Below are positions 10,225 to 31,285 of a DNA stretch of 36,382 nt, piece after piece. Each line of letters starts with the position of its first letter. The first letter of the stretch is position 1. The position numbers were made by a program, and so were the translations under genes. Under the pieces are notes generated by a model. That model searched no databases. It was not told the DNA's origin and was given only the letters and a program-made list of their open reading frames with translations. Source of the DNA: Clostridiales bacterium (lineage in GTDB: Bacteria > Bacillota > Clostridia > Lachnospirales > Lachnospiraceae); the NCBI GenBank assembly GCA_020860365.1, contig JAJBUL010000156.1, forward strand, positions 1 to 36,382. Reading direction: 5' to 3'.

Positions 10225-10280
10225 GGTCTACGCTCCGCTTCGGTCGGCGCTAAGCGAACGTCCACTGGACGTTCAGCGCC
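10225..10280 (+). repeat. Palindromic element, type A
   Basis: Head GGTCTACGCTCCGCTTCGGT, then outer stem GGCGCT/AGCGCC, a 4-base bulge AAGC, and inner hairpin GAACGTCC-ACT-GGACGTTC. The same plan with different stem sequence is seen at 10303-10355, 17129-17184 and 23330-23383. It sits in the T loop of the tRNA-Glu gene. Confidence 0.8.
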
Positions 10281-10302
10281 TCAACATTTCCGCCTTGAAA
10301 GG

Positions 10303-10355
10303 TTGCCAGGTGCCAGTGGCACCTGTTTGGCAACGACCGAAGCGAAGCGTAGACC
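10303..10355 (-). repeat. Palindromic element, type A (inverted)
   Basis: Read on the minus strand: head GGTCTACGCTTCGCTTCGGT, outer stem TTGCC/GGCAA, bulge AAAC, inner hairpin AGGTGCC-ACT-GGCACCT. The head matches the element at 10225 at 19 of 20 bases while both stems differ completely yet remain paired. It sits in the anticodon stem of the tRNA-Glu gene. Confidence 0.8.
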
Positions 10356-10390
10356 GATGTCCTGACCATTTAGACCACGGAGCCATATCT

Positions 10391-10415
10391 GGAGCGGATA
10401 AATTTCATCCGCTCC
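10391..10415 (+). terminator. Perfect hairpin between XRE gene and tRNA array
   Basis: GGAGCGGAT pairs with ATCCGCTCC around 7 bases. On the plus strand GTTTCTCTT follows; on the minus strand there is no T-run. It may be a weak terminator or an RNA processing barrier between the XRE/rtcB unit and the tRNA array. Confidence 0.5.
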
Positions 10416-10422
10416 GTTTCTC

Positions 10423-10674
10423 TTATGCACTGGCGACGATATTATCGTCTGCAATTACCAGAATATCATCCACCTTTACGCCAAACACAGCGGCCAGCAC
10501 TACCATGTTATCAATCGTTGGCAGTGCCGTCCCGTGCTGCCACTTGTACAGTGCCTGCGGTGTGGAAAAGCCGAAAATATTCTGCAGATCCTTCACCGAT
10601 AATCCCGCCTGTATTCTCAGATTCCTGATATTCTGCCCCGTCTTGACCATATCAATGGCCGGGATCGTAAACAT
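10423..10674 (-). CDS. XRE-family HTH regulator downstream of rtcB
   Basis: An 83-residue protein that is essentially one helix-turn-helix domain: NIRNLRIQAGLSVKDLQNIF, then PQALYKWQHGTALPTIDNMV and a final hydrophobic helix. The start at 10674 is preferred to 10698 because AGGAGG lies eight bases upstream. It begins 48 bases after the rtcB stop on the same strand, so it probably regulates, or is co-transcribed with, rtcB. Confidence 0.85.
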   Translation of the reverse strand: MFTIPAIDMVKTGQNIRNLRIQAGLSVKDLQNIFGFSTPQALYKWQHGTALPTIDNMVVLAAVFGVKVDDILVIADDNIVASA

Positions 10675-10722
10675 TTCATTTTCCTCCTGTTCCGGCATCT
10701 GAGAGCCGGAACAGAATCGTCC

Positions 10723-11925
10723 TCAGTCAGATGCCTTAAAATTATAGATCGGTTTCAGTACATCAATCACGTCCACAGAGTCCCGGATCACATCAATGAT
10801 ATCATCCAGAGATTTGTACGCCATCGGTGCTTCATCCAGCGTCGATTCATTGACAGAAGTAGTGTATACTCCTTCCATCAGGTGGCGGTAATCCTCCATG
10901 GAAAGTGTTTCTTTTGCTTTTCTGCGTGACATCAGACGGCCTGCGCCATGGGGTGCGGAATAATTCCATTCTGCATTGCCCCTGCCTGTCGCCAGAATGC
11001 TTCCATCCTTCATATTGATTGGAATCAGCACCCGCTCACCTTCATGAGCCGCGATTGCACCTTTTCTCAGGATCATCTCTTCCGTATCAATATAATTATG
11101 AATGGTGTGGAAAGCATCTGTGCCGGTCATGCCGGTTCTTTCCAGAATAATTTCCGCCATTTTTTCGCGGTTTCTCCTGGCAAATGCCTGGCATATTTCC
11201 ACGTCATGCAGGTAATCCTCAAAGTAAGTCCCATACAGCCAGCACAGATCTTCCGGAACTGTCGTTTCTCTTGCACTCCATGAAATTGCTTTCAGTGCTG
11301 CCTGTATTTCTTTTCTTCGTCCTGTCTCTTTGTAAGTACGGATGATTTCATCGCGCTCTTGGAAATAAGTTTCTTTCCCCTTATTCAGGTCAATCGCAAG
11401 TTGCTGATACAGTTCGGCAGTCTGTTTTCCCAGATTACGGCTCCCGGAGTGAATGACCAGATAATTGGTGCCGTCCCGAGCCTGATCTACTTCGATGAAA
11501 TGATTGCCACCGCCCAGAGTACCCAGGCTTCGTTCCAGTCGTTTTGTATCCTTCAGGTTCCTGTAGCAGCGCAGTTCTGTCAGATCAAATCGTTCCTGCC
11601 TGACTTCCCACACATTCATTCCGGACGGAATGTAATGCGCGGCTTCATCAAGCCGCTCAAAGTCAATCGCCGTTTTGCCCAGATTAACCGTATACATTCC
11701 GCATCCAATATCGACACCAACAATATTGGGAACTGCTTTATCCACAACCGTCATCGTTGTACCGATGGTGCAGCCTTTTCCTGCATGGACATCAGGCATA
11801 ATACGAATCCGGCTGTCTCTGGTAAATTCCTGGTCACACATTCTGCGGATCTGTTCAATAGCTTCATCCTCAATGATTTTCGCATAGCATATTGCTGTAT
11901 TTACTTTTCCTTTAATCTCCAGCAT
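10723..11925 (-). CDS. rtcB: RtcB family RNA ligase
   Basis: A 400-residue RtcB protein, which joins a 2',3'-cyclic phosphate (or 3'-phosphate) RNA end to a 5'-hydroxyl end using GTP and manganese, for tRNA or other RNA repair. Metal and active-site segments are present in order: GVDIGCGMYT, LGTLGGGNHFIEV, HSGSRNLG, and APHGAGRLMSRRKAKE, which holds the histidine that takes up GMP in characterised RtcB. The length matches the ~400-residue bacterial subgroup. The start at 11925 has GAGGAGG upstream; the open frame continues to 12093 only through the tRNA-Lys gene. Its place between tRNA-Lys and a tRNA array, with an XRE gene behind, is notable. No rtcA, archease or prfH lies nearby. Confidence 0.95.
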   Translation of the reverse strand: MLEIKGKVNTAICYAKIIEDEAIEQIRRMCDQEFTRDSRIRIMPDVHAGKGCTIGTTMTVVDKAVPNIVGVDIGCGMYTVNLGKTAIDFERLDEAAHYIPSGMNVWEVRQERFDLTELRCYRNLKDTKRLERSLGTLGGGNHFIEVDQARDGTNYLVIHSGSRNLGKQTAELYQQLAIDLNKGKETYFQERDEIIRTYKETGRRKEIQAALKAISWSARETTVPEDLCWLYGTYFEDYLHDVEICQAFARRNREKMAEIILERTGMTGTDAFHTIHNYIDTEEMILRKGAIAAHEGERVLIPINMKDGSILATGRGNAEWNYSAPHGAGRLMSRRKAKETLSMEDYRHLMEGVYTTSVNESTLDEAPMAYKSLDDIIDVIRDSVDVIDVLKPIYNFKASD

Positions 11926-11960
11926 TGTCTGCTCCTCCTCTCTCGACAGTTCCGGATAAA

Positions 11961-12032
11961 TACCCCATATGGGATTTGAACCCATGGCTCCCCGGTTAAA
12001 AGCCGGGTGCTCTTCCGCTGAGCTAATGAGGT
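11961..12032 (-). tRNA. tRNA-Lys (TTT)
   Basis: Acceptor ACCTCAT/ATGGGGT (one T-G pair), D stem GCTC/GAGC, anticodon stem CCCGG/CCGGG with loop CTTTTAA (anticodon TTT), T arm ATGGG TTCAAAT CCCAT, discriminator A. The first acceptor pair is A-T, unusual for tRNA-Lys. It lies 35 bases upstream of the rtcB start codon, on the same strand. Confidence 0.88.
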
Positions 12033-12039
12033 TCACTCG

Positions 12040-12089
12040 GCTTGCGCCTCGTTGAACGCGGTGCTCGTCAAACATCCAAGCACGCAAGC
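12040..12089. repeat. Probable palindromic element next to tRNA-Lys
   Basis: Outer stem GCTTGCG/CGCAAGC encloses an inner stem GTGCT/AGCAC with a 14-base bulge, the outer/bulge/inner plan of the other elements here, but with longer loops. It starts eight bases from the 5' end of tRNA-Lys. Less certain than the other copies. Confidence 0.4.
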
Positions 12090-12198
12090 GCACTTGTCTG
12101 CTTTCCTCGCTACTCGCGCAAAAAATACCGCCTACCCCATACAGGATAAGCGGTTCTCTTGAAATATATGTAACCCGCGATATTCACTCAGCAGGCAA

Positions 12199-12327
12199 TC
12201 ATAAAATATCCCATCTCAATCGACTTTTTCTTACCCTATATGGACGCATCAAATCAAGACCCTGTTTTTTATCCAGTGCCGGCTCATGTCGTTCATCACT
12301 AAGGTAATATAAAAAGTTGACTGCCAT
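12199..12327 (-). CDS. Possible 42-residue ORF
   Basis: MAVNFLYYLSDERHEPALDK and a basic C-terminus (PYRVRKSRLRWDIL). AAAGGAAAG lies a few bases before the ATG, a usable ribosome site. No family recognised; it may be the start of a truncated gene. The remaining sequence 12090-12391 shows nothing else I can support. Confidence 0.3.
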   Translation of the reverse strand: MAVNFLYYLSDERHEPALDKKQGLDLMRPYRVRKSRLRWDIL

Positions 12328-12391
12328 TATTCTTTCCTTTCCGGACTCCTGAAGCCCTTTTCCTGTTTCTGAGCGCATTATAACCTATTTT

Positions 12392-13597
12392 TCAAAGATT
12401 GTCATTATACTTGTGGTATAAAATTTCAGATTTTACCTGAAAGGAAATGCGTACGCTCGTGTTCCTTCCTATGCCGTAAAAAAACACATCCATAGGTTCG
12501 TTATAAATCCTGTTGATTTTTTCGATGCTCTGCACGAAGGGCACTGTACAGTTCATCGATGTCTTAATCAGACGGTACATAGCTTTATCAGTTTTCGCTG
12601 TTGTCCTGTCATTAAGCTTATTACCTGTAGAAACCAGTGCCTCATCAACTGGTCCTTTACTGATAATCGGAATTTTGGAAATTGCCTTTCCGGCATTTTT
12701 ACTAATACCGGCAGCTCCACTCGTCAAAAAAGTCTGAATTGAAGATTTTGAAATGCCTTCAATCCGATTATAGCAATCTGTGTACAACTCACGATACTGG
12801 AATGCCAGTTCCTCTATCCTGTGCACAGTACTTTGCAGATACTGCTCATCAAAATTCCCCAAAAGCATGACTTCAAGGAAAGATGCAAAGGAAAACTGAT
12901 AAAGTGCCATTTGATAATCTCTGAAAGCATCCTGTGTTTTTTTCAATTTTGTATTTACTTCCTGATCACTATGTATCAGACTGTTTTTCTCCATTACAGT
13001 CCGAATCTGTTCTCGATACAGCTGGATATCCTGTTCAGCTTCCCGTCGGATATCCTGTACAAGAATATGCTTATTCGTTTTATATTTCTCATTATTCCAG
13101 TTAAATTTATAGTTGTTGACAACATCGATCAACGTGTTAATATTCCCTCGCAGCTTCGCTTTTTCCTTCGCTTTCAGAAAGTCCATCATTTCCTGCTGCA
13201 TCTCCTGAATATTATCCAGTTTCTTCTCAATATTCATCAGAGCTGCCGCCATGCAAAGCATAGTCGGATCACAGGCAAGCTGTGTGAGGTGCGCCTGTCC
13301 ACCGCCCACTGCACCAGTTTCTGTAGTCAGGCTGCCCAGATAGTCAGAACTGTTGGCGAACTGCATCATTTTCAGTCCCTTTGTGTTGACATAATATAAA
13401 CCACTGCCTCCACCTCCTCTAACTATGGATTGAACACCGGAAACTAACGGCTGAAATGCAGTTCCCAATGCAGTTAGATTAGCCAGAGGATATTTCTGAT
13501 ATGTTCCTGCCCTCAGTTTTTCTTCTGGGATCGATGGTAAATATTCCACATCCAGAGTTTTTAATGCCACCTGTTGTCTGCTTTCCAATTCTTCCAT
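12392..13597 (-). CDS. Coiled-coil protein of unknown function
   Basis: A 401-residue protein I do not recognise. It has a Gly-rich segment near residue 60 (RGGGGSGLYY), a long helical coiled-coil stretch from about residue 120 (MNIEKKLDNIQEMQQEMMDF) to 215, and a second helical part to about 300. There is no signal peptide or clear membrane segment. The ATG has GGGGGA upstream and lies 12 bases after the stop of the COG3910 ATPase gene, so the two are one transcript. Candidate roles are a structural partner or an effector controlled by that ATPase; neither is shown by the sequence. The last ~15 residues may have been altered by a late frame change. Confidence 0.7.
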   Translation of the reverse strand: MEELESRQQVALKTLDVEYLPSIPEEKLRAGTYQKYPLANLTALGTAFQPLVSGVQSIVRGGGGSGLYYVNTKGLKMMQFANSSDYLGSLTTETGAVGGGQAHLTQLACDPTMLCMAAALMNIEKKLDNIQEMQQEMMDFLKAKEKAKLRGNINTLIDVVNNYKFNWNNEKYKTNKHILVQDIRREAEQDIQLYREQIRTVMEKNSLIHSDQEVNTKLKKTQDAFRDYQMALYQFSFASFLEVMLLGNFDEQYLQSTVHRIEELAFQYRELYTDCYNRIEGISKSSIQTFLTSGAAGISKNAGKAISKIPIISKGPVDEALVSTGNKLNDRTTAKTDKAMYRLIKTSMNCTVPFVQSIEKINRIYNEPMDVFFYGIGRNTSVRISFQVKSEILYHKYNDNL

Positions 13598-13609
13598 ACC
13601 TTTTCCCCC

Positions 13610-14326
13610 TCATAAAAGCCGTCTTAAAAGCTGCTCCCGGTTATTGATAAACATCTCCGTGACCTGATAGCTGTCCGTATCCTCATAACTGCAAGGGTGA
13701 ATCTGCCCATCATCAAAAGAGAGTATTTCCGCATCAGGTATACCCAGCAGGATTGGAGAGTGTGTTGCTATGATAAACTGAGAGTCTTCTTTCGCGCAGT
13801 TGGCAATCTCCAATAGAAGCGTCAACTGTCGCTGTGGGGATAACGCTGCCTCTGGCTCATCGAGGATGTACAATCCATTTGGTTTAAATTGTTCCTGTGC
13901 AATAAGCAGGAAACTCTCCCCGTGCGATCTCTTATGCAGTTCATCGGATGGAGCACCGAACGGGCCTTTTGAATATTCTTCTTCCTGTGTCGCCACATTG
14001 TAGAAACTTTCAGCCCTAAGAAAGTAGCCCCAGCCAGCCTTTCGCGGCGATCTGGAAAGGCGTATTGCGTCACACAGTTCTGAATGCGAATCGTAAGTGG
14101 AAAACCGATAGTTCTTCGTACCGCCTTCCGGATTGAAACCCCAGGCAACTGCAATCGCCTCCAGCAGAGTGGATTTTCCACTTCCGTTTTCTCCTACAAA
14201 GAATGTGACCGGCTTCCGGAATTCAATGTAATCCAGACTTGTCAATGCCTCGATCTTTCTGAGATAGCTGTACTCACCGATTTTGCCCCAGTCTATGTAA
14301 GCACCCTGTAAAAGCTGGTTGTTCAT
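13610..14326 (-). CDS. ABC-type predicted ATPase (COG3910-like)
   Basis: A 238-residue ABC-class ATPase of the soluble, SMC/Rad50-like kind. Walker A GENGSGKST, a signature-like SHGESFL, Walker B GLYILDEPEAALSP and the switch ATHSP are all intact and in order. The pattern AVAWGFNPEGGTKN and LRAESFYNVAT matches the predicted ATPases grouped as COG3910, a complete family of about this length. The start at 14326 is chosen because GAGGT lies eight bases upstream, inside the end of the helicase gene five bases away. Role unknown; a DNA- or stress-related function is likely by analogy. Translational coupling with both neighbours is probable. Confidence 0.88.
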   Translation of the reverse strand: MNNQLLQGAYIDWGKIGEYSYLRKIEALTSLDYIEFRKPVTFFVGENGSGKSTLLEAIAVAWGFNPEGGTKNYRFSTYDSHSELCDAIRLSRSPRKAGWGYFLRAESFYNVATQEEEYSKGPFGAPSDELHKRSHGESFLLIAQEQFKPNGLYILDEPEAALSPQRQLTLLLEIANCAKEDSQFIIATHSPILLGIPDAEILSFDDGQIHPCSYEDTDSYQVTEMFINNREQLLRRLL

Positions 14327-14331
14327 TTGTT

Positions 14332-15828: not shown

Positions 15829-15832
15829 GCCT

Positions 15833-15906
15833 TGTCCTGCATCGGAGATGCAGGACGTAGGCCACGCCTCGCGCTTTAGCGCGATTCCAAATGGCGTGGC
15901 TCACTA
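15833..15906 (+). repeat. Palindromic element, type B, at a deletion junction
   Basis: Hairpin TCCTGCATC-GGA-GATGCAGGA, linker, outer stem GCCACGCC/GGCGTGGC, inner hairpin CGCGC-TTTA-GCGCG, and a bulge ATTCCAAAT. A second copy lies 400 bases away (16298-16376). It joins the cut-off small gene at 15904-15966 to the beheaded helicase gene. Confidence 0.85.
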
Positions 15907-15966
15907 GAATCCCCTGTCAAGCATCATTTGATACAGCTCCTGACTGATCTCAGATTTTGTCTTCAT
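15904..15966 (-). pseudogene. Truncated start of a small gene
   Basis: Twenty residues, MKTKSEISQELYQMMLDRGF, then a TAG made by the first bases of the palindromic element. GGAGAG lies a few bases upstream and the gene begins 20 bases after the histidine phosphatase stop, so this is a real gene start whose remainder was deleted. I recall similar starts in ~75-residue Lachnospiraceae proteins of unknown function. Confidence 0.5.
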
Positions 15967-15986
15967 ATCAATCACTCTCCATATTT

Positions 15987-16602
15987 CTACCAGGTATAGG
16001 TTCTTACTTCACAGTTCCCAATACCGAATGCGGCAAATTCTTCGTTGGTCATATCATAAAAATAAGACTGTATCACGCGGGAAATGCCGTTATGCGCCAC
16101 CAGCAGATAAGTTCTGTCATCTGCCCGGATATCATCAATGAGATTATATACCCGCTGGCATAGCTGCATCATTGTCTCCCCGCCGTCATAATGATCCAGA
16201 AAATGCGTCTTCGCGATCTGAAATTCTTTCCCGTCTCTGGGAGTGGATTCATACCGGCCAAAGTTCTGCTCCTTCAGCCGCGGCTCCATCCGCAACATGT
16301 CCTGCATCGCTTTTTGATGCAGGACGAAGGCCACGCCATCGCGCGCAAGCGCGATTCTAAATGGCGTGGCTCACTATCGGGATACCGGTTTCCTCTGAAA
16401 TATGGCGTGCCGTCTCAGACGCCCGCACCAGAGGTGAATACAGTATCTCATCCACTGGTAGTTTCTCGGCGGCAAGCCGTCTGCCAAGTTCAATCGCCTA
16501 TGTATGGCCAAGCTCCGTCAGTGCAATGTCGGTTGCCCCGCAGATTTTATTCTCGACATTCCAGACTGCCTGCCCGTGTCTGGTGAAATAGAGTGTCCCC
16601 AA
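15987..16602 (-). pseudogene. Histidine phosphatase family protein with stop and palindromic insertion
   Basis: Starts at TTG 16602 with GAGGAGG upstream: MGTLYFTRHGQAVWN holds the catalytic RHG motif of phosphoglycerate-mutase-like phosphatases. A TAG at 16498-16500 (codon 35) cuts the frame. The same frame then gives DEILYSPLVRASETARH and breaks at the palindromic element 16298-16376 after TGIPI. Beyond it, one base out of frame, EPRLKEQNFGRYEST, HYDGGETMMQL and AHNGISRVIQ (second catalytic His) complete the family. Deleting 88 bases between two GAT triplets restores PMEPRLKEQ in frame. The second half could be made separately from a GTG inside the element. Confidence 0.8.
16298..16376 (+). 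repeat. Palindromic element, type B, in phosphatase gene
   Basis: Same plan as 15833-15906: hairpin TCCTGCATC/GATGCAGGA, outer stem GCCACGCC/GGCGTGGC, inner hairpin CGCGC-GCAA-GCGCG, bulge ATTCTAAAT, end CTCACTA. The two differ mainly in the hairpin loops, in the bulge (C versus T) and in the outer linker. Confidence 0.85.
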
Positions 16603-16646
16603 TTTCGTATCCTCCTCAAGACTTCATTGATTTCCCGAGTGATCTT

Positions 16647-17057: not shown

Positions 17058-17128
17058 TGTATTGCCTCCTCACAATCGCGAATCAATGACTATATCATGA
17101 GCAAAGGACGCTCATGATCCAATTCGCC

Positions 17129-17232
17129 GGTCTCCGCTTCACTACGGTCCGCGCTAAGCGGATGTCTCCCGGACATCCAGCGCCGCCGGACGTGCACACC
17201 CGAAGGGCGTCCCTTGCGGAAGCACGCCCTTC
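17129..17232 (+). repeat. Palindromic element, type A, plus adjacent hairpin
   Basis: Head GGTCTCCGCTTCACTACGGT, outer stem GCGCT/AGCGC, bulge AAGC, inner hairpin GGATGTC-TCCC-GGACATCC (17129-17184). A second hairpin, GAAGGGCGT/ACGCCCTTC, follows at 17202-17232 and may be the SRAP-gene terminator or part of another element. Together they fill the SRAP/TIGR04076 intergenic region. Confidence 0.75.
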
Positions 17233-17245
17233 TCGCTTGCGCTCA

Positions 17246-17914
17246 TTATATCATTCCGAAAAGACTCTGCTGTTCATATTCCTGTGTTCGCTGTAATGGC
17301 ACAGGAATTTTCTGCAGAAAATCCTGTGTCTGTTCACTGTCACAAATCCAGTTTTCTACATCCTCTTTCTCCAGGATCAGAGGCATCCGGTCATGAGCGC
17401 CGGCCAAACGCGAAGCGTTTCTTTTGTTGTCGGCGCGACCTGCCGCCGAACGGATGTGAGGGGGCATTTCCTCGACCGGCGATACGGATGGATTTGCCTG
17501 CGTGGTCAATATTACGAATCGGATCTCGTCTTGCATCATATTAAAAAATCCGGCCATGTACAACACCGAACCACTATTCCGCAGAAAACTCACTTTATTT
17601 TTTGAGGCATCCCACTCATAAAAATGCCGAGCCGGTATCACACAACGCCGATGCAGAACGCTCTCGCTGAAAGTTTTCTTCTGCAGGGCTGTTTCTGCAC
17701 GTGCATTTATGAATAAGCCCTTCCCGCTGTATTGTGGGAAGCCCCATTTCATTTCATCGAGCTGCAGGCCCGAATTTCTCTTCATTATAATCGGAGCTGT
17801 TTCACCCGGATGCACATCCCTTGCAGTCCATTTCAATCCGGGACTTTTCCTGCCCGTAAGCAGACCGGAGACTTCATCCAAAGTGTCATCATCAATATAA
17901 TATCTGCTGCACAT
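17246..17914 (-). CDS. SRAP-domain protein (YedK/HMCES-like) with in-frame insert
   Basis: A 222-residue SOS-response-associated peptidase-type protein, which forms a stable bond to abasic sites in single-stranded DNA. The essential Cys2 is in MCSRYY at the start; FINARAET (68-75), ARHFYEW with the catalytic Glu (95-101) and AHDRMPLIL with the active-site His (173-181) are present. Between ANPSVSPV and HDRMP lie 26 extra residues (148-173), encoded by a hairpin-rich 78-base insertion that keeps the frame. In relatives these two segments are adjacent. Low-complexity charged residues in the insert (GRADNKRNASRLAGA) suggest an exposed loop next to the active site. The protein may still work. ATG at 17914 is followed directly by the Cys codon, so the start is certain. 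Confidence 0.9.
   Translation of the reverse strand: MCSRYYIDDDTLDEVSGLLTGRKSPGLKWTARDVHPGETAPIIMKRNSGLQLDEMKWGFPQYSGKGLFINARAETALQKKTFSESVLHRRCVIPARHFYEWDASKNKVSFLRNSGSVLYMAGFFNMMQDEIRFVILTTQANPSVSPVEEMPPHIRSAAGRADNKRNASRLAGAHDRMPLILEKEDVENWICDSEQTQDFLQKIPVPLQRTQEYEQQSLFGMI
17396..17473 (-). repeat. Palindromic element inserted in frame in SRAP gene
   Basis: 78 bases, a multiple of three without stop codons. On the minus strand: outer stem GCGCCG/CGGCGC, bulge ACAACAAAAG, inner hairpin AAACGC-TTC-GCGTTT, preceded by a head with GGCGGCAGGTCG. It follows the outer-bulge-inner plan of the other elements but is translated. Exact ends and any target duplication are unclear. Confidence 0.6.
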
Positions 17915-17937
17915 GTGTGCATGACCTCCCTGTGATC

Positions 17938-18067
17938 TTAAATGTCCTCTTCATATTCCACACGCATTTTTGCCAGAGCTTGTCCGTCTTTTTCGTTCGC
18001 GTCACCATTTGTATTCAATATTTGTGGCCATCCAAAATCAGGTCAGAAGGCCATTGAAAACCAGGTC
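17938..18067 (-). mobile_element. Possible insertion-sequence remnant
   Basis: Two near-identical 19-base direct repeats (18026-18044 and 18049-18067, GGCCATCCAAAATCAGGTC versus GGCCATTGAAAACCAGGTC), 23 bp apart, followed on the minus strand by a coding tail NGDANEKDGQALAKMRVEYE ending at a TAA at 17938. Repeats of this spacing are seen at IS21-type ends; the identity is a guess. The second repeat overlaps the GNAT stop codon. Confidence 0.35.
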
Positions 18068-22844: not shown

Positions 22845-23315
22845 ATGAGCGACCGGTTAAATTTTATCATAAAAACAAAAGAAGGCTTGATCGAGGCTAT
22901 TCACCAGGTCGGTTTTCTTCCGGTGTTTCAAAATTCTCTTCCCGGTTTTTCCGTTGAAGATCACGTCGATCCGTCGATATGGTTTACCGATGAGACCGGC
23001 GTATGGGAATGGAAAGGGCCGGTTATTCAGGAAGCAAACTGTGCCTATGGAAAGTTTTTTGAGAACAGGGCTGCGTTTATCAGCGCGGAGTGGTTCCTGG
23101 ACTTTGCGAACTATCGCCGGGACGGCTATGACTTTGACGCGCGATTCGATGATGAGCTGGCATCCTACAAAGGCGCTGGACGTCCACCGGCCGTCCAGCG
23201 CCCCCAATCCCCGTTTGAACATCACCGCTGGGGATGGCCTGCGCGTCTCCGCTCTGCTCCGGTCGGCGAATATCCCGTCCGCTCTTTGGACGGGATGCCA
23301 CCCGGCGAGGGCTAA
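22845..23315 (+). pseudogene. AlkZ-related/winged-helix protein, 3' end replaced by palindromic elements
   Basis: True sequence runs from MSDRLNFIIKTKEGLIEAIH to about ARFDDELASYKG (near 23170): QVGFLPVFQNSLPGFSVEDH, EWKGPVIQEANCAYGKFFEN and EWFLDFANYRRDGYDFDARF recall a family annotated as AlkZ-related or winged-helix proteins (possible DNA-repair glycosylases). After that the frame continues 48 residues through GC-rich palindromes and stops, so the remaining domain is lost. A short frame after the elements (EECFYEILTKKY, 23398-23430) could be its tail. An alternative start is 22815. Confidence 0.6.
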
Positions 23316-23397
23316 ACGAACGTCCACTGGGTCTCCGCTTCGCTCCGGTCCGTCCTAAACGCGTGCCACTGGCACGCAGAACCGTTCAGCGCCCGGA
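23160..23397 (+). repeat. Cluster of nested palindromic elements
   Basis: Hairpin GCGCTGGACG/CGTCCAGCGC (about 23170-23198), then a type A head GTCTCCGCTCTGCTCCGGTC (from 23245), a hairpin ATCCCGTCC/GGACGGGAT, the half element GCTAAACGAACGTCCACTG, a complete type A element at 23330-23383 (outer stem GTCCT/AGAAC with one mismatch, inner GCGTGCC-ACT-GGCACGC), and finally GTTCAGCGCC, which completes the interrupted half element. So one copy has inserted into another. Confidence 0.65.
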
Positions 23398-24029: not shown

Positions 24030-24048
24030 TGTTATTACCTCCTTCGTT

Positions 24049-24429
24049 TTACTCCTTATCCCACAGGCGGAATGTCCGCCTGTACGCGCAGTCATTTGGC
24101 AGTGTAGGATTAAATAATGCTGTAAACAGATTCACTTTTCCGCAGTGATTACATTTGCGGAAACGATCTTCATAAATTTTGCACAGGTGCGTTTCTTAAT
24201 TCAGATTTTCGCACGGGTCGTCAAAATGAATCGACACCCGGCCCTCTGCCCAGACAGAGCGGGCGTAGCAGCATTTCCCACAGCGATTGCATAACAAATC
24301 CCAGTCCTTTCGCCATTTGAGCCAGAGCGTGTCGTCAATTGCGAAGCGATTTTCTAATACGACACGCGACCTGGCAGGTACGCGTCAGCCGTGCGTGCCG
24401 TTTCCACTTTTAAAAATACGAATCCACAT
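24049..24429 (-). pseudogene. YkgJ-type cysteine-cluster protein, broken
   Basis: Starts MWIRIFKSGNG (ATG 24429, GGAGG eight bases upstream) and hits a stop after residue 14. Past the palindromic element 24327-24367 the family returns: LWLKWRKDWDLLCNRCGKCC with the CxxCxCC cluster, DPCENLN, a TAA, then THLCKIYEDRFRKCNHCGKV and NPTLPNDCAYRRTFRLW to a stop at 24049. Such proteins bind a metal or Fe-S centre through eight or so cysteines. At least two stops and an insertion make it inactive. It sits between the third sirtuin and the nitroreductase. Confidence 0.65.
24327..24367 (+). repeat. Palindromic element in YkgJ-type gene
   Basis: Outer stem GCGTGTCGT/ACGACACGC, inner hairpin ATTGC-GAA-GCGAT, bulge TTTCTAAT. 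The plan and the TTCTAA bulge match the type B elements, with unrelated stems. The neighbouring hairpin of type B is not obvious here. Confidence 0.65.
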
Positions 24430-24449
24430 TTCATATGCCTCCAGGTGTA

Positions 24450-25024
24450 TCAGACAATCAACCGGAAAACCTCATCCGCGCCCGCACGGATATTGATAGA
24501 CGCGTAAGAGTCAAAATTGGTTTCACCCGGATTGATCTGAATGATTTTCGCGCTGCGTTTTCTGTAATTCGATGCACACGACCGCACATGGAATGGCTGC
24601 TTCGCAGCCTTGCGGTCGGCGCAGATGGAAACGACTAATGTCGTTTCCTATAAAATGCATTCCCGTAGGAACCGTTAGCACCGATTATTAAAATCAGCTC
24701 AGCTTTTGAAATCCAGTCCTGTGCTTTCTTCAGATTTTCCTCATGAAGTCCGACACCGCTGTAGAACGGGAATGTCCAGATCACGTCTCTGCATTCATCA
24801 CATCTGGGAACGGTTCCCTGGTTCCAGATATGGTAATCGTCAAAATGTTTGCCGCACTTCGTGCAGCGATTGATTTGAAGGCTCCCCTGGATTTCCGCCA
24901 CATTTTCATGGTCAAAGTTCATGCCGCCTGCGGAAAAGGATATCCCGGCGCCGGTGATGGCGACAGTATACCGGCTTTCGTTCAAAGCCTTTTTTAACTG
25001 AAGTGCCTGTCTGGAAATATCCAT
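24450..25024 (-). pseudogene. Sirtuin (third copy), internally deleted and interrupted
   Basis: Starts MDISRQALQLKKALNESRYT, VAITGAGISFSAGG, then jumps to HENVAEIQGSLQINRCTKCG. Compared with the two intact neighbours about 85 residues are missing, including the TxNxD catalytic segment. The zinc site (CTKC, CDEC) and ELILIIGANGSYGNA remain. The palindromic element at 24577-24654 then breaks the frame; beyond it NYRKRSAKIIQINPGETNFD leads to a stop at 24450. Joining at the repeated TGCAT gives GNASNYRKRSAKI in frame, matching the intact paralogue's SAYWNYRRSDAVI. It cannot be active. It begins 17 bases after the macrodomain gene. Confidence 0.85.
24577..24654 (-). repeat. Palindromic element, type B plan, flanked by TGCAT duplication
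   Basis: On the minus strand: hairpin GGAAACGAC-ATTA-GTCGTTTCC, linker, outer stem CGACCGCA/TGCGGTCG, inner hairpin GGCTGC-GAA-GCAGCC, bulge ATTCCATG. Part for part this is the type B plan with different stems. TGCAT occurs on both sides (24655-24659 and 24572-24576 on the plus strand), a likely target-site duplication. Confidence 0.8.
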
Positions 25025-25041
25025 TCAAAGTCCTCCTTCCG

Positions 25042-26851: not shown

Positions 26852-26864
26852 AAGCGTCACATCC

Positions 26865-27590
26865 TTATTCGTTCATAACTGCATCCAGTACCTGTGCGGC
26901 ATCCGCCCGGATATTCAGATCCGTCATCCGGTCGAACTGCGTCTCAGACGGGTTGATCTGCACAAGCTTTGTTTCCTTCCTCATGCGGCTCAAATATTCA
27001 TTGCTGTGGAATCCGGTAGTGCCGATCACAATCACCAGATCCGCCTCAGAAATCATGGCGGCGGCTTTGTACATGCTTTCACGTGAAACCTCTTCCCCGG
27101 TTTTAAAATCCCTGCAGAAGCTTGTGGGCATCAACGGTGCACCGCATTTTTCACAGCGCGGCTCATGTCCCTCATTCCAGATCTGATAATCGTAATAACG
27201 GCTACCGCAGTCCGTGCAGATGTTATCACGGAAGCTTCCCTGGAATTCTATCACATTCTGAGAGCCTGCGATGGTATGCAGGCAGTCCAGGTTCTGGGTG
27301 ACGATGCCATAGAGCTTCCCCTGTTTTTCCAGCTCTGCAAGCTGCTTATGAACAGGCCCCGGTCCCTTGACAAAAGTTGCGTCCAGAAAAGCATTCTTCA
27401 TAACCTTGTAGAACTCCTCCGGATTTTTGCGGACATAGGAAACAGAGAAGATTCGTCCGGCATTCAGTCTGCCGACGCTCTGTTTCAACCTGCTCACGCC
27501 ATAAAGATAAGAGATTCCCGCGCCTGTTACGGCAACGGTCTTATTGCTCTGATCCATATATTCTTTTAACTGGCTGTATTCACTCTTCAT
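26865..27590 (-). CDS. Sirtuin of the macrodomain-linked (SirTM) type
   Basis: A 241-residue paralogue of the next gene. VAVTGAGISYLYG (NAD loop), VTQNLDCLHTIAG with Asn100, then EFQGSF with Gln117 in place of the usual catalytic His, zinc Cys in CTDC (125, 128) and CEKC (146, 149), and LVIVIGTTGFHSNEYL. As with SirTM, protein ADP-ribosylation is the expected activity. ATG 27590 overlaps the flavodoxin stop (ATGA), with GGAGG upstream; the longer start is not needed. Fourteen bases or so separate it from the second sirtuin. The two intact sirtuins differ well outside the core, so they probably have different targets. Confidence 0.92.
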   Translation of the reverse strand: MKSEYSQLKEYMDQSNKTVAVTGAGISYLYGVSRLKQSVGRLNAGRIFSVSYVRKNPEEFYKVMKNAFLDATFVKGPGPVHKQLAELEKQGKLYGIVTQNLDCLHTIAGSQNVIEFQGSFRDNICTDCGSRYYDYQIWNEGHEPRCEKCGAPLMPTSFCRDFKTGEEVSRESMYKAAAMISEADLVIVIGTTGFHSNEYLSRMRKETKLVQINPSETQFDRMTDLNIRADAAQVLDAVMNE

Positions 27591-28048
27591 GATTTGCCGC
27601 CTCCATCGAGCCATTTCCTGACTGTTTCTTCATGAATCTTATTCAAACGCAGACCGGAATGGACGTTTGCGCCGGCACAGGCCTTCTTAAGCTGCTCTAC
27701 CGCGGTTTCAGGGCCGCTCATCCCGCTGGTGCAGAAAGGATAGACTTCTTTCCCGCTGAAATCATACTGCGATATAAAGGACAAAACCAGCTGAGGACAT
27801 TTACTGTACCAGATCGGAAAGCCGATCAGAATACGGTCATAGGAATCAAAGTCCCTTACCTGATCCACGACCTTTGGCAGTTCATTCACAGAGAATTCCT
27901 TTCTGGAAACCCCGAGTGCAGTGAAATAATTCCCATAATTTTTCTCACCTTTAATCTCAAAAATATCTCCGTTCGCAATTTTTTGCAGTCCCTCCGCTGC
28001 TTTCTTTGTAGCGCCTGCTCTTGAATAATAAGCAATCAGTGTTTCCAT
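27587..28048 (-). CDS. Flavodoxin
   Basis: A 153-residue FMN-binding electron carrier. LIAYYSRAGATKKAAEGLQK is the FMN phosphate loop and LIGFPIWYSKCPQLVLSFIS the second flavin loop; PFCTSGMSGPETAVEQLKK matches the third. First gene of the cassette, overlapping the first sirtuin by four bases, with AAAGGAGG upstream. Its place suggests that flavin redox and sirtuin ADP-ribosylation are jointly expressed. It may also be a target of the sirtuins (inference). Confidence 0.9.
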   Translation of the reverse strand: METLIAYYSRAGATKKAAEGLQKIANGDIFEIKGEKNYGNYFTALGVSRKEFSVNELPKVVDQVRDFDSYDRILIGFPIWYSKCPQLVLSFISQYDFSGKEVYPFCTSGMSGPETAVEQLKKACAGANVHSGLRLNKIHEETVRKWLDGGGKS

Positions 28049-28075
28049 GATGGCCTCCTTTTCCTAAGTTAGGAT

Positions 28076-28103
28076 AACTATGAAACCTGCCTCCGGCAGC
28101 CTT
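28076..28103 (+). repeat. Interspersed repeat, copy 2 of 2
   Basis: AACTATGAAACCTGCC followed by TCCGGCAGCCTT, 25 of 28 bases equal to 9271-9298. It is followed by a second hairpin ATATCC-TTC-GGATAT (28107-28121). It lies in the leader of the flavodoxin-sirtuin unit. Confidence 0.55.
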
Positions 28104-28134
28104 GCATATCCTTCGGATATTCTTAACATATATG

Positions 28135-28180
28135 AAAAAACAGCACCCATCAAAGAGAGGTGTAATCTCTGGTGAGTGCC
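28135..28180 (-). terminator. Terminator of nitroreductase gene
   Basis: On the minus strand GCACTCA ... TGGGTGC forms the outer stem and AGAG/CTCT an inner stem, followed by TGTTTTTTC. It separates the Rrf2-controlled nitroreductase from the flavodoxin-sirtuin unit. Confidence 0.7.
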
Positions 28181-28200
28181 GCTTTTCGTCAATGATTGTT

Positions 28201-28731
28201 TCAGATGTAATTTACAGCAAGCGAAACGGACAGTTCCCGTGCCTCGGCGCTGCCGCTCTTGCTGTATCCGAGTGCAGCAGCGGAAACCGGCTTAAAGCCT
28301 TCCGGAATGCCCATCTTCGCGCACAGATCCGCGTTCTTCGCCAGAGCCTGCACACCACCCCAGAGATAAATGTTGTCCACACCGGCGTCCGTCGCTGCGA
28401 TCAGCATATTCTCGATCACGCATGCGGCGTTCGCGCATTCAATCCCCGGTGCCATCTGTTTCTCTGAAGCGGAGACAATGATCACAGCGGGTGCGCCATA
28501 GAAGAAATCTCTGGGCTCCATTTTCATGGCAGCAGCGGTGGTCTGATTGATTTCGCTTAAAAGCTCTTTGTTCCGGCATACCGTCAGGTGAAGAGATTTC
28601 CGGTCATTCCCACCGATCGGGGCCTGACAGCCTGCCTTCACAATCGTGTCAATAATTTCCTCAGGAATTGCCTTATCCGGGTCAAAATCCCGTGTTGATT
28701 TTCTTTTCGCAATCGCTTCTAAAGTCTGCAT
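28201..28731 (-). CDS. Nitroreductase family protein, divergent from Rrf2 gene
   Basis: A 176-residue FMN-binding oxidoreductase. RKSTRDFDPDKAIPEEIIDT and CQAPIGGNDRKSLHLTVCRN form the FMN site; CVIENMLIAATDAGVDNIYL and IPEGFKPVSAAALGYSK are the conserved ends. Close to the protein at 23499-24029. AGGAGG stands upstream of ATG 28731. A consensus promoter (28767-28795) overlaps likely Rrf2 sites, so it is probably controlled by the divergently encoded Rrf2 protein. Confidence 0.9.
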   Translation of the reverse strand: MQTLEAIAKRKSTRDFDPDKAIPEEIIDTIVKAGCQAPIGGNDRKSLHLTVCRNKELLSEINQTTAAAMKMEPRDFFYGAPAVIIVSASEKQMAPGIECANAACVIENMLIAATDAGVDNIYLWGGVQALAKNADLCAKMGIPEGFKPVSAAALGYSKSGSAEARELSVSLAVNYI

Positions 28732-28759
28732 CAAAATTACCTCCTTAATGTAATTTAAG

Positions 28760-28806
28760 TAGCTACATTATATTGCGATATAAAAGTAATGTCAAGAGCT
28801 ACATTT
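28760..28806 (-). promoter_or_regulatory. Consensus promoter with repeated operator half-sites
   Basis: TTGACA (28790-28795), a 17-base spacer and TATAAT (28767-28772) on the minus strand, a perfect sigma-A promoter. The sequence AATGTAGCT occurs twice on that strand, just upstream of the -35 and overlapping the end of the -10 (where it extends to the palindrome GTAGCTAC). This is a likely Rrf2 binding region. Confidence 0.8.
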
Positions 28807-28870
28807 GATTTTTCAAAATAAATCTGCTATACTCATTTCAATATTTATGTCGGAGAAAGAGGGTAGTTCT

Positions 28871-29353
28871 ATGCGTGTCAGCAGACGATTCCCATTGGCA
28901 GTTCACGCATTACTGTTTGTTGCGGTTCTGTCGCCCAAAAAACGTGTGACCAGTACACTTGTTGCGGAAAGCACCGGTGCCAACGCGGTCACGGTCAGAA
29001 ATCTGTTCCTTGAATTATCTGACAGCGGCCTTCTGATCGCAACCGCAGGCAAAAACGGCGGTGTGCAGCTGGCCAGGGAGCCGGAGAATATTACCTTATG
29101 GGACATTTATCAGGCGGTGGAAACGCCGGATGCGGATGAAATTTTCAAAATGTATGAAGGAAGCGATACCTGTCCTGTCGGGAAAAATTTTTATCAGATC
29201 CTGTATCCGCACATGGAGTCAGCTGCCAATGCCATGAAAGCAAGTCTGGAACAGGTGACGCTGGAGACGCTGAAGGAGGAGCTGCAGCCTCTGCTGAAGG
29301 AACTGCACGCAGAGAAGTGCCCATCTGCTTTAACAGACACAACATCAGAATGA
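28871..29353 (+). CDS. Rrf2 family transcriptional regulator
   Basis: A 160-residue winged-helix regulator. RRFPLAVHALLFVAV and KKRVTSTLVAESTGANAVTV give the helix-turn-helix, and GLLIATAGKNGGVQLAREPE the wing with the family GKNGGVxLAR motif. One Cys (DTCPVGKNF) is present rather than the three that bind Fe-S in IscR, so it is probably a redox or small-molecule sensor without a classic cluster. ATG 28871 follows AGAGGG. It faces the nitroreductase gene. Confidence 0.9.
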   Translation: MRVSRRFPLAVHALLFVAVLSPKKRVTSTLVAESTGANAVTVRNLFLELSDSGLLIATAGKNGGVQLAREPENITLWDIYQAVETPDADEIFKMYEGSDTCPVGKNFYQILYPHMESAANAMKASLEQVTLETLKEELQPLLKELHAEKCPSALTDTTSE

Positions 29354-29385
29354 TCAGAACTCTGAGAGCGCCAGTTCTGTACTTT

Positions 29386-30048
29386 TCAGCAGGTTAATAT
29401 CTCCCACACAAAAGTCACGGTGTCGCTCACATCAATATCATCCGGCTCGATGTCAATGCCCCTGGGAGCCGCCGCATAGGGCATACATTCTTCGGACAGC
29501 TTATACTGGGTGTTGGAGTAAATCTCCAGTTCGCCCCAGTTATAATCAACATTCAGGAGTTGTCCCAGCTTTACCCCGGAGGCCTCGCACAGGATTTCTG
29601 CTTTGCACCGCGCGTTCACAGCTGCTGACTGGAGCATTTCTTCATTCACTGCAGAGGCATCCTTTACAGTAAATCAGATGGACAGATCCGGATTTGACAG
29701 ACAGCCGGCAATCGCGGAGAGTGCCTTTGATAATCTCTGCATCTCAAAATCAAATTCCAGCTTCAGACTGTGGTCCGCCACGTAGCCGTTAAAGACTCGA
29801 TTGTATTTTCCGTTCCGGTCTTTGACATTCTGATAATCCGTATGGACATTGAAGCTTGCCGTTTTCAGATCGTTTTTCTCAAATCCGATCGCGCAGAGTG
29901 TTTCTGTAAGACGCTGAATGTGCTGACCGGCCAAATCCATCGCCCGGTCATAATTATTGTCCCGCATATGCAGCGACATGGAAATCACAACCTGATCCGG
30001 TCTTGCTGATGCTTTTCCAATTCTTTTAACTGTTATGACTCTTGCCAT
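29386..30048 (-). pseudogene. SIMPL-domain (DUF541) protein with one in-frame TGA
   Basis: MARVITVKRIGKASARPDQV, SMSLHMRDNNYDRAMDLAGQ and VHTDYQNVKDRNGKYNRVF are the N-terminal SIMPL part. After NPDLSI a TGA (29674-29676) interrupts, and the same frame continues FTVKDASAVNEEMLQSAAVN to IEPDDIDVSDTVTFVWEI. Only one codon separates two intact halves, so this is a single nonsense change or an error. No SECIS-like reason for readthrough is evident. GGAGGAAAAG precedes the ATG. Confidence 0.8.
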
Positions 30049-30108
30049 TTACTTTTCCTCCTCTGCCTGAAACAAAATCCGGATTAACTTCTTGTCCATC
30101 AAAAATGA

Positions 30109-31188
30109 CTACCCCCATGGATTGATGATCACGCCGGCTACATTGTCCATATCCAGAACCTCCTTCAGATGGTCTTCCATGGAAATCACCAGCGTAGATG
30201 TTGCCTCACCTTTATGGACTTCTTCATCACTTGTGAATGCCGCAAGCCATTCCCTGCCGTCCTTCGTCTGGATTTTTCTCAGTCGGAAATGTAAATCTTC
30301 CTGTGCTGTGATTGTATCGCCCACCTTCAGATGTGCCGGATCAAATAAATCAAACACGGCTTGAGACGGTTCGACCGCCGCGATCAACTGTCCCTGCTGC
30401 TCCATGCGTTTGCTGATCACTGCCAGGATCTGAACCAGGTTTTCTTTTGTGGAAGCTTCATAGAAAATCGAGATTGCCTTTTCAAGATAGCGATTATCTT
30501 TCAGCCCGGCAGTTGCTTCCTCCGTATCGCAGTCGCCGCCGAGAGAAACCGCTGTGCGGATGACATCTTCAAAATCATTTCCTTCCAGGAAAGCGGTGAT
30601 GGCTTCCGGTACTGTCTCCTGGCAGCTTTCCACATGATGATAGTAAGGACGTATCTCGTCGCAAGTTCTGCTCAAATTGTATCTGAATTCCTCTGTCACA
30701 TATTTTCTGATCTGTTCTTTACTGTTTCCTGTTCGTGCCAGAAAAATAACAGCAGCAACAGACTCCGCTCCTTTGATTCCCTCCGGATGATTGTGCGTCA
30801 CGTCAGCAGTTGCCCTGGCGGCTTCTCTGGTTTGCTTCAGCGTATCATACAGCCATCCTGCAGCCGACACGCGCATCGCGGAACCGTTTCCGTAGCTCCC
30901 ATACGGCGCAGGATTTTTCTGCGTCAGCCAGACACGGAACCGGCCGCCATATCCAGCATGAGGATATTTTCGTCCCCATTTCTGCATGGATTCGGTCACA
31001 AGCGCCCTGATACGGTCAACAGGTGCATCTTTTCCTGCATTCAGCAGAGCTTCAGCCACTGCGATTGTCATCACGCTGTCATCTGTAAACTCTGCTTCTT
31101 TTCCGAACAGTTCAAATTCCTTTGTTTTATTTCCTCTGTCAAACTCATACGGGCTCCCGATGATATCTCCTAAAATCGCTCCATACAT
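30109..31188 (-). CDS. ADP-ribosylglycohydrolase (DraG-type) fused to SseB-like domain
   Basis: A 359-residue protein. Residues 1-222 are an ADP-ribosylglycohydrolase: AILGDIIGSPYEF, EFTDDSVMT (34-41, Mg ligands), GNGSAMRVS (100-108), THNHPEG (131-137) and VSLGGDCDT (214-222, Mg ligands). The family normally continues ~50 residues after this motif; here the chain goes directly into a linker and then an SseB-like N-terminal domain (278-359, ending GVIINPWG). The metal residues remain, but the shortened end may weaken the fold. It should remove ADP-ribose from arginine or other residues, or from ADP-ribosyl nucleotides. ATG 31188 is preferred; the longer frame runs through a palindromic element. 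Confidence 0.85.
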   Translation of the reverse strand: MYGAILGDIIGSPYEFDRGNKTKEFELFGKEAEFTDDSVMTIAVAEALLNAGKDAPVDRIRALVTESMQKWGRKYPHAGYGGRFRVWLTQKNPAPYGSYGNGSAMRVSAAGWLYDTLKQTREAARATADVTHNHPEGIKGAESVAAVIFLARTGNSKEQIRKYVTEEFRYNLSRTCDEIRPYYHHVESCQETVPEAITAFLEGNDFEDVIRTAVSLGGDCDTEEATAGLKDNRYLEKAISIFYEASTKENLVQILAVISKRMEQQGQLIAAVEPSQAVFDLFDPAHLKVGDTITAQEDLHFRLRKIQTKDGREWLAAFTSDEEVHKGEATSTLVISMEDHLKEVLDMDNVAGVIINPWG

Positions 31189-31220
31189 TTCGTTGTACCT
31201 CCCTGTCCTTTTGATGCGCA

Positions 31221-31285
31221 GGGCTGCGTAAGGAAATTTTCCGACTAAAGCCGGACGCAGCCCGCGCGGGCGAGTAGGAGCCGGC
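31221..31285 (-). repeat. Palindromic element upstream of ADP-ribosylglycohydrolase gene
   Basis: Outer stem GGGCTGCGT/ACGCAGCCC, inner hairpin GGAAA/TTTCC, a 12-base bulge, and a tail GCGGGCGAGTAGGAGCC. It has the same outer-inner-bulge-outer-tail order as type A elements read in reverse. It sits in the leader of the gene, 33 bases before its ATG. Confidence 0.6.

Follow-up and report, generated by a model that had tools for sequence, protein, structure and literature searches.

Background

To our knowledge, palindromic elements that invade genes in frame have been discussed chiefly for Rickettsia. Integron attC sites are recognized as folded single strands whose structure is kept while the sequence varies, and the name of the Rfam family GA-cis (RF02987) implies a cis-regulatory position before genes. 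According to the accessible part of PMC10969869, Rickettsia palindromic elements (RPEs) are short palindromes that lie in frame in unrelated genes and form several families. The CGTC class of REP sequences, which includes RPE-4 and RPE-6, carries CCA tails and has no known dedicated transposase in the available portion of PMC3733652.

The window analysed here is a stretch of 36,382 nucleotides from a Clostridiales bacterium of the Lachnospiraceae (contig JAJBUL010000156.1 of the source genome, assembly GCA_020860365.1). An earlier note on its sequence had listed at least ten places with small palindromic elements and seen in them a logic like that of the Rickettsia palindromic elements or of REP/MITE sequences. 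The likeness is supported by empty sites and by insertion in frame (see below).

Element classes in the window

Each of the ten places proved to contain an element (the one at 31221 by folding and by eye), and three classes could be told apart: type A, the GA class and type B. Type A has a conserved head followed by two stacked stems, and the anatomy originally described for it (head, outer stem, AAAC/AAGC bulge, inner hairpin) was found again. Its net insert is 51 bp, that of the GA class mostly 78-81 bp (72 bp in ValRS) and that of type B about 82 bp. The idea that type A length is always a multiple of three was given up because the core from TCT to the stem has 52 or 54 bases; the same rule for every class was abandoned on the type B value of about 82 bp, which comes from match coordinates and is consistent with the frameshift in its host gene. 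The stems, said to be wholly different within each type, do differ in type A and in the GA class, whose 113 copies show 67 different 5' arms, but the two type B copies, 15833 and 16298, have GCCACGCC/GGCGTGGC in common. In the eight parsed type B copies the outer stem has GTAG (four copies) or GAAG (four copies) at its 5' foot; inspected by eye, the outer stems of type A and the GA class were not preceded by GT[AG]G.

The places 10225 and 10303 both fall within one minus-strand tRNA-Glu gene remnant (10208..10384, read against loci L002 and L003), which is split by two type A copies; it was recognized by reading the sequence and was not called as a tRNA in the scans. One copy (10227..10280, plus strand, TCT head to 3' outer arm, 83.7 bits in the R1 match) occupies the T-arm region. 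The other (10302..10355, minus strand) lies at the border of the anticodon stem and loop, where 54 bases replace 3 of the intact tRNA-Glu(TTC) gene on contig C55 of the source genome. At 23309..23394 (plus strand) a type A copy is split by another, the nested copy at 23332 (23332..23383, plus strand). The stretch 23311-23393 is itself dispersed across the genus. The stem-loop that goes with a type A-like head at 23242..23298 (plus strand) is unusual.

A GA-cis insertion of net 78 bp (17396..17474, plus strand) lies in the SRAP gene 17246-17914 (minus strand) and keeps its frame. It matches RF02987 (17390-17475; 52.6 bits, gathering score 34.7), so the earlier statement that the elements match none known to its author is not supported, one class being GA-cis; the other elements gave no Rfam match in a permissive scan of 10000-31400. 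The place 24327 was reassigned to the GA class: the insertion (24326..24408, plus strand, net 81 bp against genome G020 and contig C184 of the source genome) has a different tail hairpin, the same ends as the class (AGCG...GTTTCCA) and the plan of RF02987, yet no match to the model.

Type B at 15832..15906 (plus strand) consists of a 5' hairpin, GTAG, the outer stem, the inner hairpin and the 3' bulge ATTCCAAAT. The second copy (16295..16375, plus strand, net about 82 bp by match coordinates) disrupts a histidine-phosphatase-like gene by shifting the frame and adding a stop. This site is empty in six loci of the genus, some of which may be paralogues, and filled in two; a second copy of the gene, on contig C135 of the source genome, is empty. 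A type B-like insertion of net about 82 bp against G020 (24570..24650, minus strand) contains the stop of ORF 24635-25024 (minus strand). Compared with contig C184, the difference at this site is about 86 by coordinates.

Copy number and spread

The genome search suggested earlier turned up many further copies. The source genome holds at least 38 type A matches and 42 GA-cis matches, 38 of the latter above the cut-off (the copy at 17396 and 37 others). Type A was present in 68 of 150 Lachnospiraceae genera; with a stricter cut-off it was found in 6 of 10 genomes of the same family and in 8 of 281 others of the class sample. Records of Coprococcus catus and Butyrivibrio, too, contain type A. 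GA-cis occurred in 24 of 47 genus genomes with 633 matches in sum and at most 62 per genome, and nested as well as tandem copies were seen. Among the literature matches listed, in which subscription journals are thinly covered, no title names such elements in Lachnospiraceae, and a search of the same coverage for GA-cis with RNA motif returned none.

Empty sites and element ends

That the elements are insertions follows from orthologous sites that lack them, and judged by these sequence comparisons they are real, repeated and mobile. The net length was 78 bp for the GA class at SRAP, PheT, RecD2, GH2 and L163, and 51 bp for type A in ValRS of G017 relative to G000 and at loci L008 and L006; the total of 129 bp at L006 is 78 + 51. 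Intergenic DNA, tRNA genes, protein genes and other elements all served as targets. At the resolved sites the GA class runs AGC...TTTCC (TTTCCA at several of them) and type A TCT...GCC; the terminal CGTC tag, assigned to RPE-4 and RPE-6 in PMC3733652, was absent by eye from the resolved ends in the empty-site alignments. The ValRS site is filled in G000, G020, G016 and G017 and empty in G014, G018, G019 and G021, although the flanks of the latter four are nearer to G000 than are those of G016 and G017. This patchy filling requires loss, recombination or repeated insertion.

Conservation of the fold

Pairing was tested on 164 type A candidates picked by the head alone, with an inner-arm length of 7 or 8 chosen by best pairing. 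The outer stem was perfect in 89 (mean of 200 shuffles 33.9, maximum 45) and the inner stem in 117 (mean 17.1, maximum 26). Two-sided changes were seen at 11 of 16 pairs compared with 5.4 after shuffling, both figures being inflated because the 33 type A copies used had been preselected for perfect stems. The test proposed in the earlier note found stems paired beyond shuffles. Its view that selection or the spreading mechanism acts on the fold gains support from this excess of pairing, from the diversity of the GA arms and from the constrained loops of a mini-hairpin.

This mini-hairpin, d(GC-GNA-GC), is found in both type A and the GA class. In type A, where the parse was anchored on CGGTC, the bulge and the stems, the mini-stem was Watson-Crick paired in 166 of 171 parsed copies; of 156 three-base loops, 154 were GNA, and all 14 four-base loops were GNNA. 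In the GA class, 104 of 113 copies have GNA and 112 of 113 the GC/GC closure. The pattern used for fetching loci L029-L144 fixed head bases 6, 7 and 9 and so imposed the three-base GNA loop on these loci; the four-base variants and the 5-11 covariation are unaffected. The accessible text of PMC4686876 gives the GNA/GNNA rule and a melting temperature of 78 C for GCGAAGC. Since such loops form unusually stable DNA mini-hairpins, the form under selection is probably a single-stranded DNA fold. The rule is not fully independent evidence for DNA, as the loop letters are also common by descent, and the selected fold may have an RNA form as well.

Placement in genes and alternative readings

In-frame GA-cis copies are present in ValRS, PheT, RecD2 and other genes, and the in-frame reading is also backed by Pfam domains of the host proteins. 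ValRS is open in G000, G020 and G017, the last with GA-cis and a nested type A. Per GA copy 4.32 of the 6 frames are open, compared with 3.17 after base shuffling, while 33 of 113 copies are not a multiple of three in length by the analyst's end rule.

Taken at its name, GA-cis would be a structured cis-regulatory RNA, and both the match at gathering level and the strong stem covariation agree with that. We consider this very improbable for the elements. The expected position before genes was not found: 75 of 113 GA copies are within long ORFs, 41 in plus and 34 in minus orientation, which is about equal to random windows (324 of 470). Moreover, orthologous sites are empty, a genome can have up to 62 matches, and copies are nested and in tandem. 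By the sequence data, the reading of GA-cis as a Rickettsia-like, gene-invading palindromic element is preferable to that of a cis-regulatory RNA. If the elements were tiny introns, cut from the RNA, or were skipped by the ribosome in translational bypass, this would suit insertions at the tRNA-Glu anticodon stem/loop border and within essential genes. However, the tRNA-Glu gene has lost 3 host bases, so that an excising element would not restore the tRNA. In GA copies, moreover, the frame is mostly kept and stops are avoided, neither of which would be required of an element that is skipped. On this evidence the intron reading was rejected; introns and bypass elements together are scarcely credible.

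As to how the copies spread, the bulged hairpin, the small size and the dispersed copies are also features of REP/REPIN-type elements driven by an IS200/IS605-like Y1 (RAYT) transposase. The GTAG (four copies) or GAAG (four copies) at the stem foot of type B resembles the REP guide described in the available parts of PMC6006769 and PMC3733652, and Y1_Tnp matches occur in 88 of 150 genera. This origin, suggested in the earlier note as a REP-type or HUH transposase, is nevertheless unlikely and was rejected for type A, because over the 150 genomes type A and Y1_Tnp were not associated (41 with both, 27 with type A only, 47 with Y1 only, 35 with neither; p = 0.74), and 6 of 17 genomes with at least 8 type A copies had no Y1_Tnp match (8-27 copies in those six). 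The source genome itself has one partial match, at a contig end. The transposase search, made with Y1_Tnp against type A, did not reveal a mobilizing gene. Spread might also proceed without a dedicated enzyme: replication would switch templates between sequences that are similar or rich in hairpins, and quasi-palindrome correction would keep the stems perfect. In line with this, 10 of 97 non-tandem GA copies have a repeat of the 5' arm right behind the element (mean of 500 shuffles 1.3, maximum 5), the 5' arm resembles the target at RecD2, L163, GH2 and ValRS (weakly at SRAP), and 11 of 125 type A junctions fall in perfect hairpins of at least 6 bp (300 shuffles: mean 2.1, maximum 7). In contrast, similarity to the target was absent at PheT, 24326 and 24570, and the repeats of L146, L160 and L412, three of the ten, continue as far as the inner hairpin, so they may be tandem copies in part. 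At L153 the similarity is confined to the repeat after the element, the empty sites of relatives being without it. Target repeats were lacking for type A at L008, possibly 2 bp long at RecD2 and PheT, and longer at L163 and GH2. The near-constant net length of each class, together with end motifs that do not vary, points to a defined reaction, and we regard spread without a dedicated enzyme as doubtful.

Probable non-autonomous mobile elements defined by their fold

We think it likely that the elements are non-autonomous mobile DNA, about 51-82 bp in size, and that their fold rather than their sequence defines them. A conserved part on one side (head or tail) adjoins an outer stem that varies but stays paired, together with the inner hairpin and the asymmetric bulge. 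The recognized and copied form would be single-stranded DNA folded with the d(GC-GNA-GC) mini-hairpin, and a structure-specific enzyme would move the elements in trans. In the GA class, a length that is mostly a multiple of three and the scarcity of stop codons may let copies persist in genes. A more speculative proposal, to which we give a small chance, is that the element takes part of its fold from the target. The (duplicated) target would become the 5' outer arm, and the 3' arm would be made as its complement on integration of a GNA mini-hairpin element into single-stranded DNA. Every insertion would in this way create a new stem, and the mobile element would be self-templating, guided by structure and local complementarity.

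The GA class is similar to RPEs in being inserted in frame in unrelated protein genes, whereas type B at 16295 is out of frame. The elements described here differ from RPEs in size (about 51-82 bp as opposed to about 150 bp), in phylum, in the GNA mini-hairpin and in their ends. The copy at 17396 and the 37 further matches belong to RF02987 by score, but behave as mobile elements in coding genes, not as cis-regulatory leaders. Like the CGTC/GTAG REPs they are small imperfect palindromes; type B has GTAG or GAAG at the stem foot, and the GA-class ends are reminiscent of the CCA tails. Here, however, type A and GA stems vary freely, the mini-hairpin is conserved, and the GA class is in genes at about the random-window level. 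Like MITEs they are non-autonomous, but in type A and the GA class neither terminal inverted repeats nor a clear duplication of the target were seen. By analogy with attC sites, a folded single strand may be recognized, with structure kept over sequence; the copies here are dispersed, and no cassette array was noticed.

If the GNA mini-hairpin is the recognized part, the fold described for aptamers (in the accessible text of PMC4686876) would have a natural genomic role and offer a handle for tracing the missing enzyme. Lachnospiraceae carry dozens of small hairpin elements that have entered genes, essential ones included, often with the frame preserved; their fold persists although the letters vary freely, and one Rfam RNA family is re-read as mobile DNA. 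Such palindromes reach tens of copies per genome in bacteria common in the gut and the rumen and are present even in two aminoacyl-tRNA synthetases, so that hosts which can be cultured now allow a test of how proteins evolve through hairpin insertion.

Composite and related elements

The type A copy at 17131..17184 (plus strand) is part of a composite insertion (17092..17254) whose two ends carry the 8-bp direct repeat TATATCAT. The site is empty in the genus genomes G017, G018, G021, G007 and G013, and the composite, with its 8-bp target repeat, could be a MITE carrying type A. A further hairpin-pair element (31206..31300, minus strand), folded and recognized by eye, lies at the start of ORF 30109-31287 (minus strand). 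By eye, its family hosts nested type A copies at L014, L015, L024, L041, L053, L114 and L119.

Anatomy and occurrence of the elements

The elements lie on contig C139, one of 337 in a 4.28 Mb assembly; near relatives of the contig among named records are Lachnospiraceae. Hairpin elements could be read at all ten places where an earlier note had reported them. The note assigned them one folding plan in two types, A and B; the anatomy of outer stem, bulge and inner hairpin was confirmed, but the elements fall into three classes (A, GA and B). The note knew no match for them, but one class is a known family: the GA-class member at 17396, in the SRAP gene 17246-17914(-), is GA-cis (Rfam RF02987).

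Type A consists of the head TCTMCRCTYCGYTYCGGTC, an outer stem of 6 bp, a four-base bulge and an inner hairpin with a stem of 7 or 8 bp and a loop that is mainly ACT, ACC or CCC; of 138 copies, 114 have the bulge AAAC and 18 have AAGC. The GA class has the order outer stem, inner hairpin, 3' bulge, 3' outer arm and a conserved tail bearing its own hairpin; the element at 24326 is a relative of the 17396 member with a different tail hairpin. In type B a 5' hairpin and GTAG or GAAG precede the outer stem, inner hairpin and 3' bulge.

The genome search proposed in the same note returned many further type A and GA-cis copies in this and related genomes. Type A was found in 68 of 150 Lachnospiraceae genera, with at least 38 copies in the genome studied here (G000) and 27 in two others. 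A sample of Clostridia searched with a stricter cut-off contained it in 6 of the 10 listed genomes from the same family and in 8 of 281 further genomes, five of which belong to a single family; only the best first-look candidates were scored, and absences hold at that sensitivity. Named carriers among the matches listed include Coprococcus catus, Butyrivibrio, Roseburia porci, [Eubacterium] cellulosolvens and the complete genome GAM79. Of the 47 genus genomes, 24 hold GA-cis, with up to 62 matches per genome; within the family it was matched in 10 of 150 genera, and 14 control genomes gave no GA-cis match.

Conservation of the fold

The view that the fold is what is kept, the stems differing in sequence yet staying paired, was borne out for type A and the GA class. 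Among 164 type A candidates taken by the head alone, with inner-arm length (7 or 8) set by best pairing, the outer stem was perfect in 89 (200 partner shuffles: mean 33.9, maximum 45) and the inner stem in 117 (mean 17.1, maximum 26). An alignment of 33 copies gave 57 cells with two-sided changes against 12.7 after shuffling, and in the same alignment sliding the partner by 1-3 columns reduced paired cells from 99.8% to 30-43%; these figures are inflated because the copies were chosen for perfect stems, and the head-only test is the fairer one. The 113 GA copies have 67 distinct 5' arms.

Empty sites and insertion lengths

Genus relatives have empty sites for the elements at 16295 (type B, where some of the empty loci may be paralogues), 17396 (GA-cis), 24326 and 24570, for the composite 17092-17254, which is bounded by 8-bp repeats TATATCAT, and for copies elsewhere in the genome, in the ValRS, PheT, RecD2 and GH2 genes and at loci L163, L006 and L008. 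These empty sites show that the elements have moved. The composite is MITE-like and carries type A; for a second such composite of about 237 bp (L019, G000:C86:3500-4400), G020, G021 and G018 have an empty site at which the match coordinates overlap by 7 bp.

Net lengths, read off alignment gaps or match coordinates, were 78 for GA-cis in SRAP, PheT, RecD2, GH2 and L163, 72 in ValRS, and 81 for the element at 24326. Type A added 51 at L008, where TTC is replaced by 54 bases, in the copy nested within the ValRS element of G017, and in the 129-bp composite at L006 (78 + 51); likewise, relative to the intact tRNA-Glu(TTC) on contig C55, 54 bases replace 3 in the tRNA-Glu copy of the window. Both type B sites, 16295 and 24570, gained about 82, and the 16295 insertion shifted the frame of a histidine-phosphatase-like gene and added a stop. 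A phosphatase-like gene of G008 (L181, G008:C49, 380-465 and 572-640) holds both type B and GA-cis insertions.

Type A lies inside GA-cis hairpin loops (L006, L025), inside other type A copies (23332, L021, L036, L080) and in elements of the 31221 family. Its junctions fell in a perfect hairpin of at least 6 bp in 11 cases (125 non-redundant sites of 152; 300 shuffles: mean 2.1, maximum 7); the preference for hairpin targets is real but minor. By eye, type A at L013, L045, L092, L113 and L139 adjoins or lies within apparent tRNA 3' halves, several at the same place; ARAGORN called no tRNA in L013, L092 or L113.

GA-cis within coding genes

Stop-to-stop frames of at least 300 codons read through 19 of the 30 GA-cis loci examined in G000. 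Pfam hosts include ValRS, PheT, RecD2, GH2, adenine deaminase, ABC transporter, glycerophosphotransferase, peptidase M3 and SRAP; among ten host proteins scanned, that of L163 had no Pfam match. Over several genomes 75 of 113 GA copies lay in long ORFs, and so did 324 of 470 windows placed at random in these loci; coding DNA is therefore not clearly avoided. By our own end rule, length was a multiple of three in 80 of 113 copies (59 of 75 within ORFs, 21 of 38 elsewhere), and an element had on average 4.32 of six frames open, against 3.17 in base-shuffled copies. Membership in the Rfam family is true by score, but the position in genes differs from the regulatory reading of GA-cis and argues against a regulatory RNA.

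The ValRS insertion is present in G000, G020, G016 and G017 and absent from G019, G018, G014, G021, G013, G008, G015 and G010. The gene is open in G000 and G020, and the stretch fetched from G017 remains open even with type A nested in the GA-cis. By their flanks G014, G018, G019 and G021 are nearer to G000 than G016 and G017 are; this patchiness may reflect loss, recombination or repeated insertion. In ValRS of G016 (L337) the GA-cis base pairing has, by eye, decayed, which suggests an old insertion surviving as coding sequence only.

Mini-hairpin loops

In the type A head mutual information peaks between bases 5 and 11 (138 copies: GC 98, AT 40; the 164 head-only candidates: GC 112, AT 48, other 4). 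A re-search anchored on CGGTC, bulge and stems only gave 178 copies, 7 of them unparsed (the parse requires CTNC upstream); the 2-bp mini-stem was formed in 166 of 171 parsed copies and absent in 5. On the complementary strand three-base loops were GNA in 154 of 156, a form imposed in loci L029-L144 by a retrieval pattern fixing head bases 6, 7 and 9, which imposes neither the four-base loops nor the covariation of bases 5 and 11. Four-base loops on that strand were GNNA in 14 of 14 (GGTA 5, GGCA 4, GCAA, GAAA, GGAA, GACA and GATA 1 each), and one parsed copy had a five-base loop. The GA-class inner hairpin, on its own sense strand, terminates in GC-GNA-GC: the loop was GNA in 104 of 113 copies (GAA 80, GGA 10, GCA 10, GTA 4), AAA in 7 and otherwise in two, with GC/GC closing pairs in 112.

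GNRA loops are the type stable in RNA, and several type A GNNA loops fall outside it. PMC4686876 describes DNA mini-hairpins with GNA or GNNA loops as extraordinarily stable when at least two G-C pairs close the loop; GCGAAGC melts at 78 C. We take these loops, several of them non-GNRA, as evidence that the selected form of the elements is probably single-stranded DNA.

Candidate mobiliser and related elements

To follow up the REP-type or HUH transposase suggested in the note, Y1_Tnp (PF01797) was compared with type A and showed no association: it matched in 88 of 150 genera, 41 having both, 27 type A only, 47 Y1_Tnp only and 35 neither (p = 0.74), and gave no match in six (G048, G102, G113, G136, G161, G186) of 17 genomes holding at least 8 type A copies. 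An IS200/RAYT enzyme is therefore not required for type A abundance, though one could have been lost since. RAYT-sized frames (about 240-315 codons) matching Y1_Tnp occur, 1-2 per genome, in about 16 listed Lachnospiraceae genomes (e.g. G112, G091, G184, G162, G131), with no obvious link to type A. According to PMC3733652, REPs with a CGTC tag, among them RPE-4 and RPE-6 of the Rickettsia palindromic elements (RPEs), seem to have no transposase of their own. PMC10969869 describes RPEs as about 150 bp long, forming ten families and often lying in frame within genes, and suggests that similar elements might exist in other prokaryotes. The present elements work alike but are set apart from RPEs by their ends.

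Origin of the variable stems

At L163 the arm TCAGCAGCTG bounds the insert on both sides, and G021 and G020 carry it in genes that lack the insert. For GH2, host sequence of G018 accounts for 25 bases, inner hairpin included; RecD2 has host GCGCCTGCC against element arm GCGCCAGCC, and ValRS has GAGCAGCGCC in G008 and G015 against GAGCAGTGCC. The 5' arm had no host match at PheT, 24326 and 24570. As a lead, either insertion favours locally similar sites or the arm may derive from the target. The 5' arm was repeated 3' of the element (at least 8 of 10 bases) in 10 of 97 non-tandem GA copies (500 shuffles: mean 1.3, maximum 5), although in three of these (L146, L160, L412) the repeat continues with inner-hairpin sequence and could be an incomplete tandem copy. 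Tandem GA-cis with a 78-bp unit is seen within one ORF at L170/L173 (G000:C170:6761-6921).
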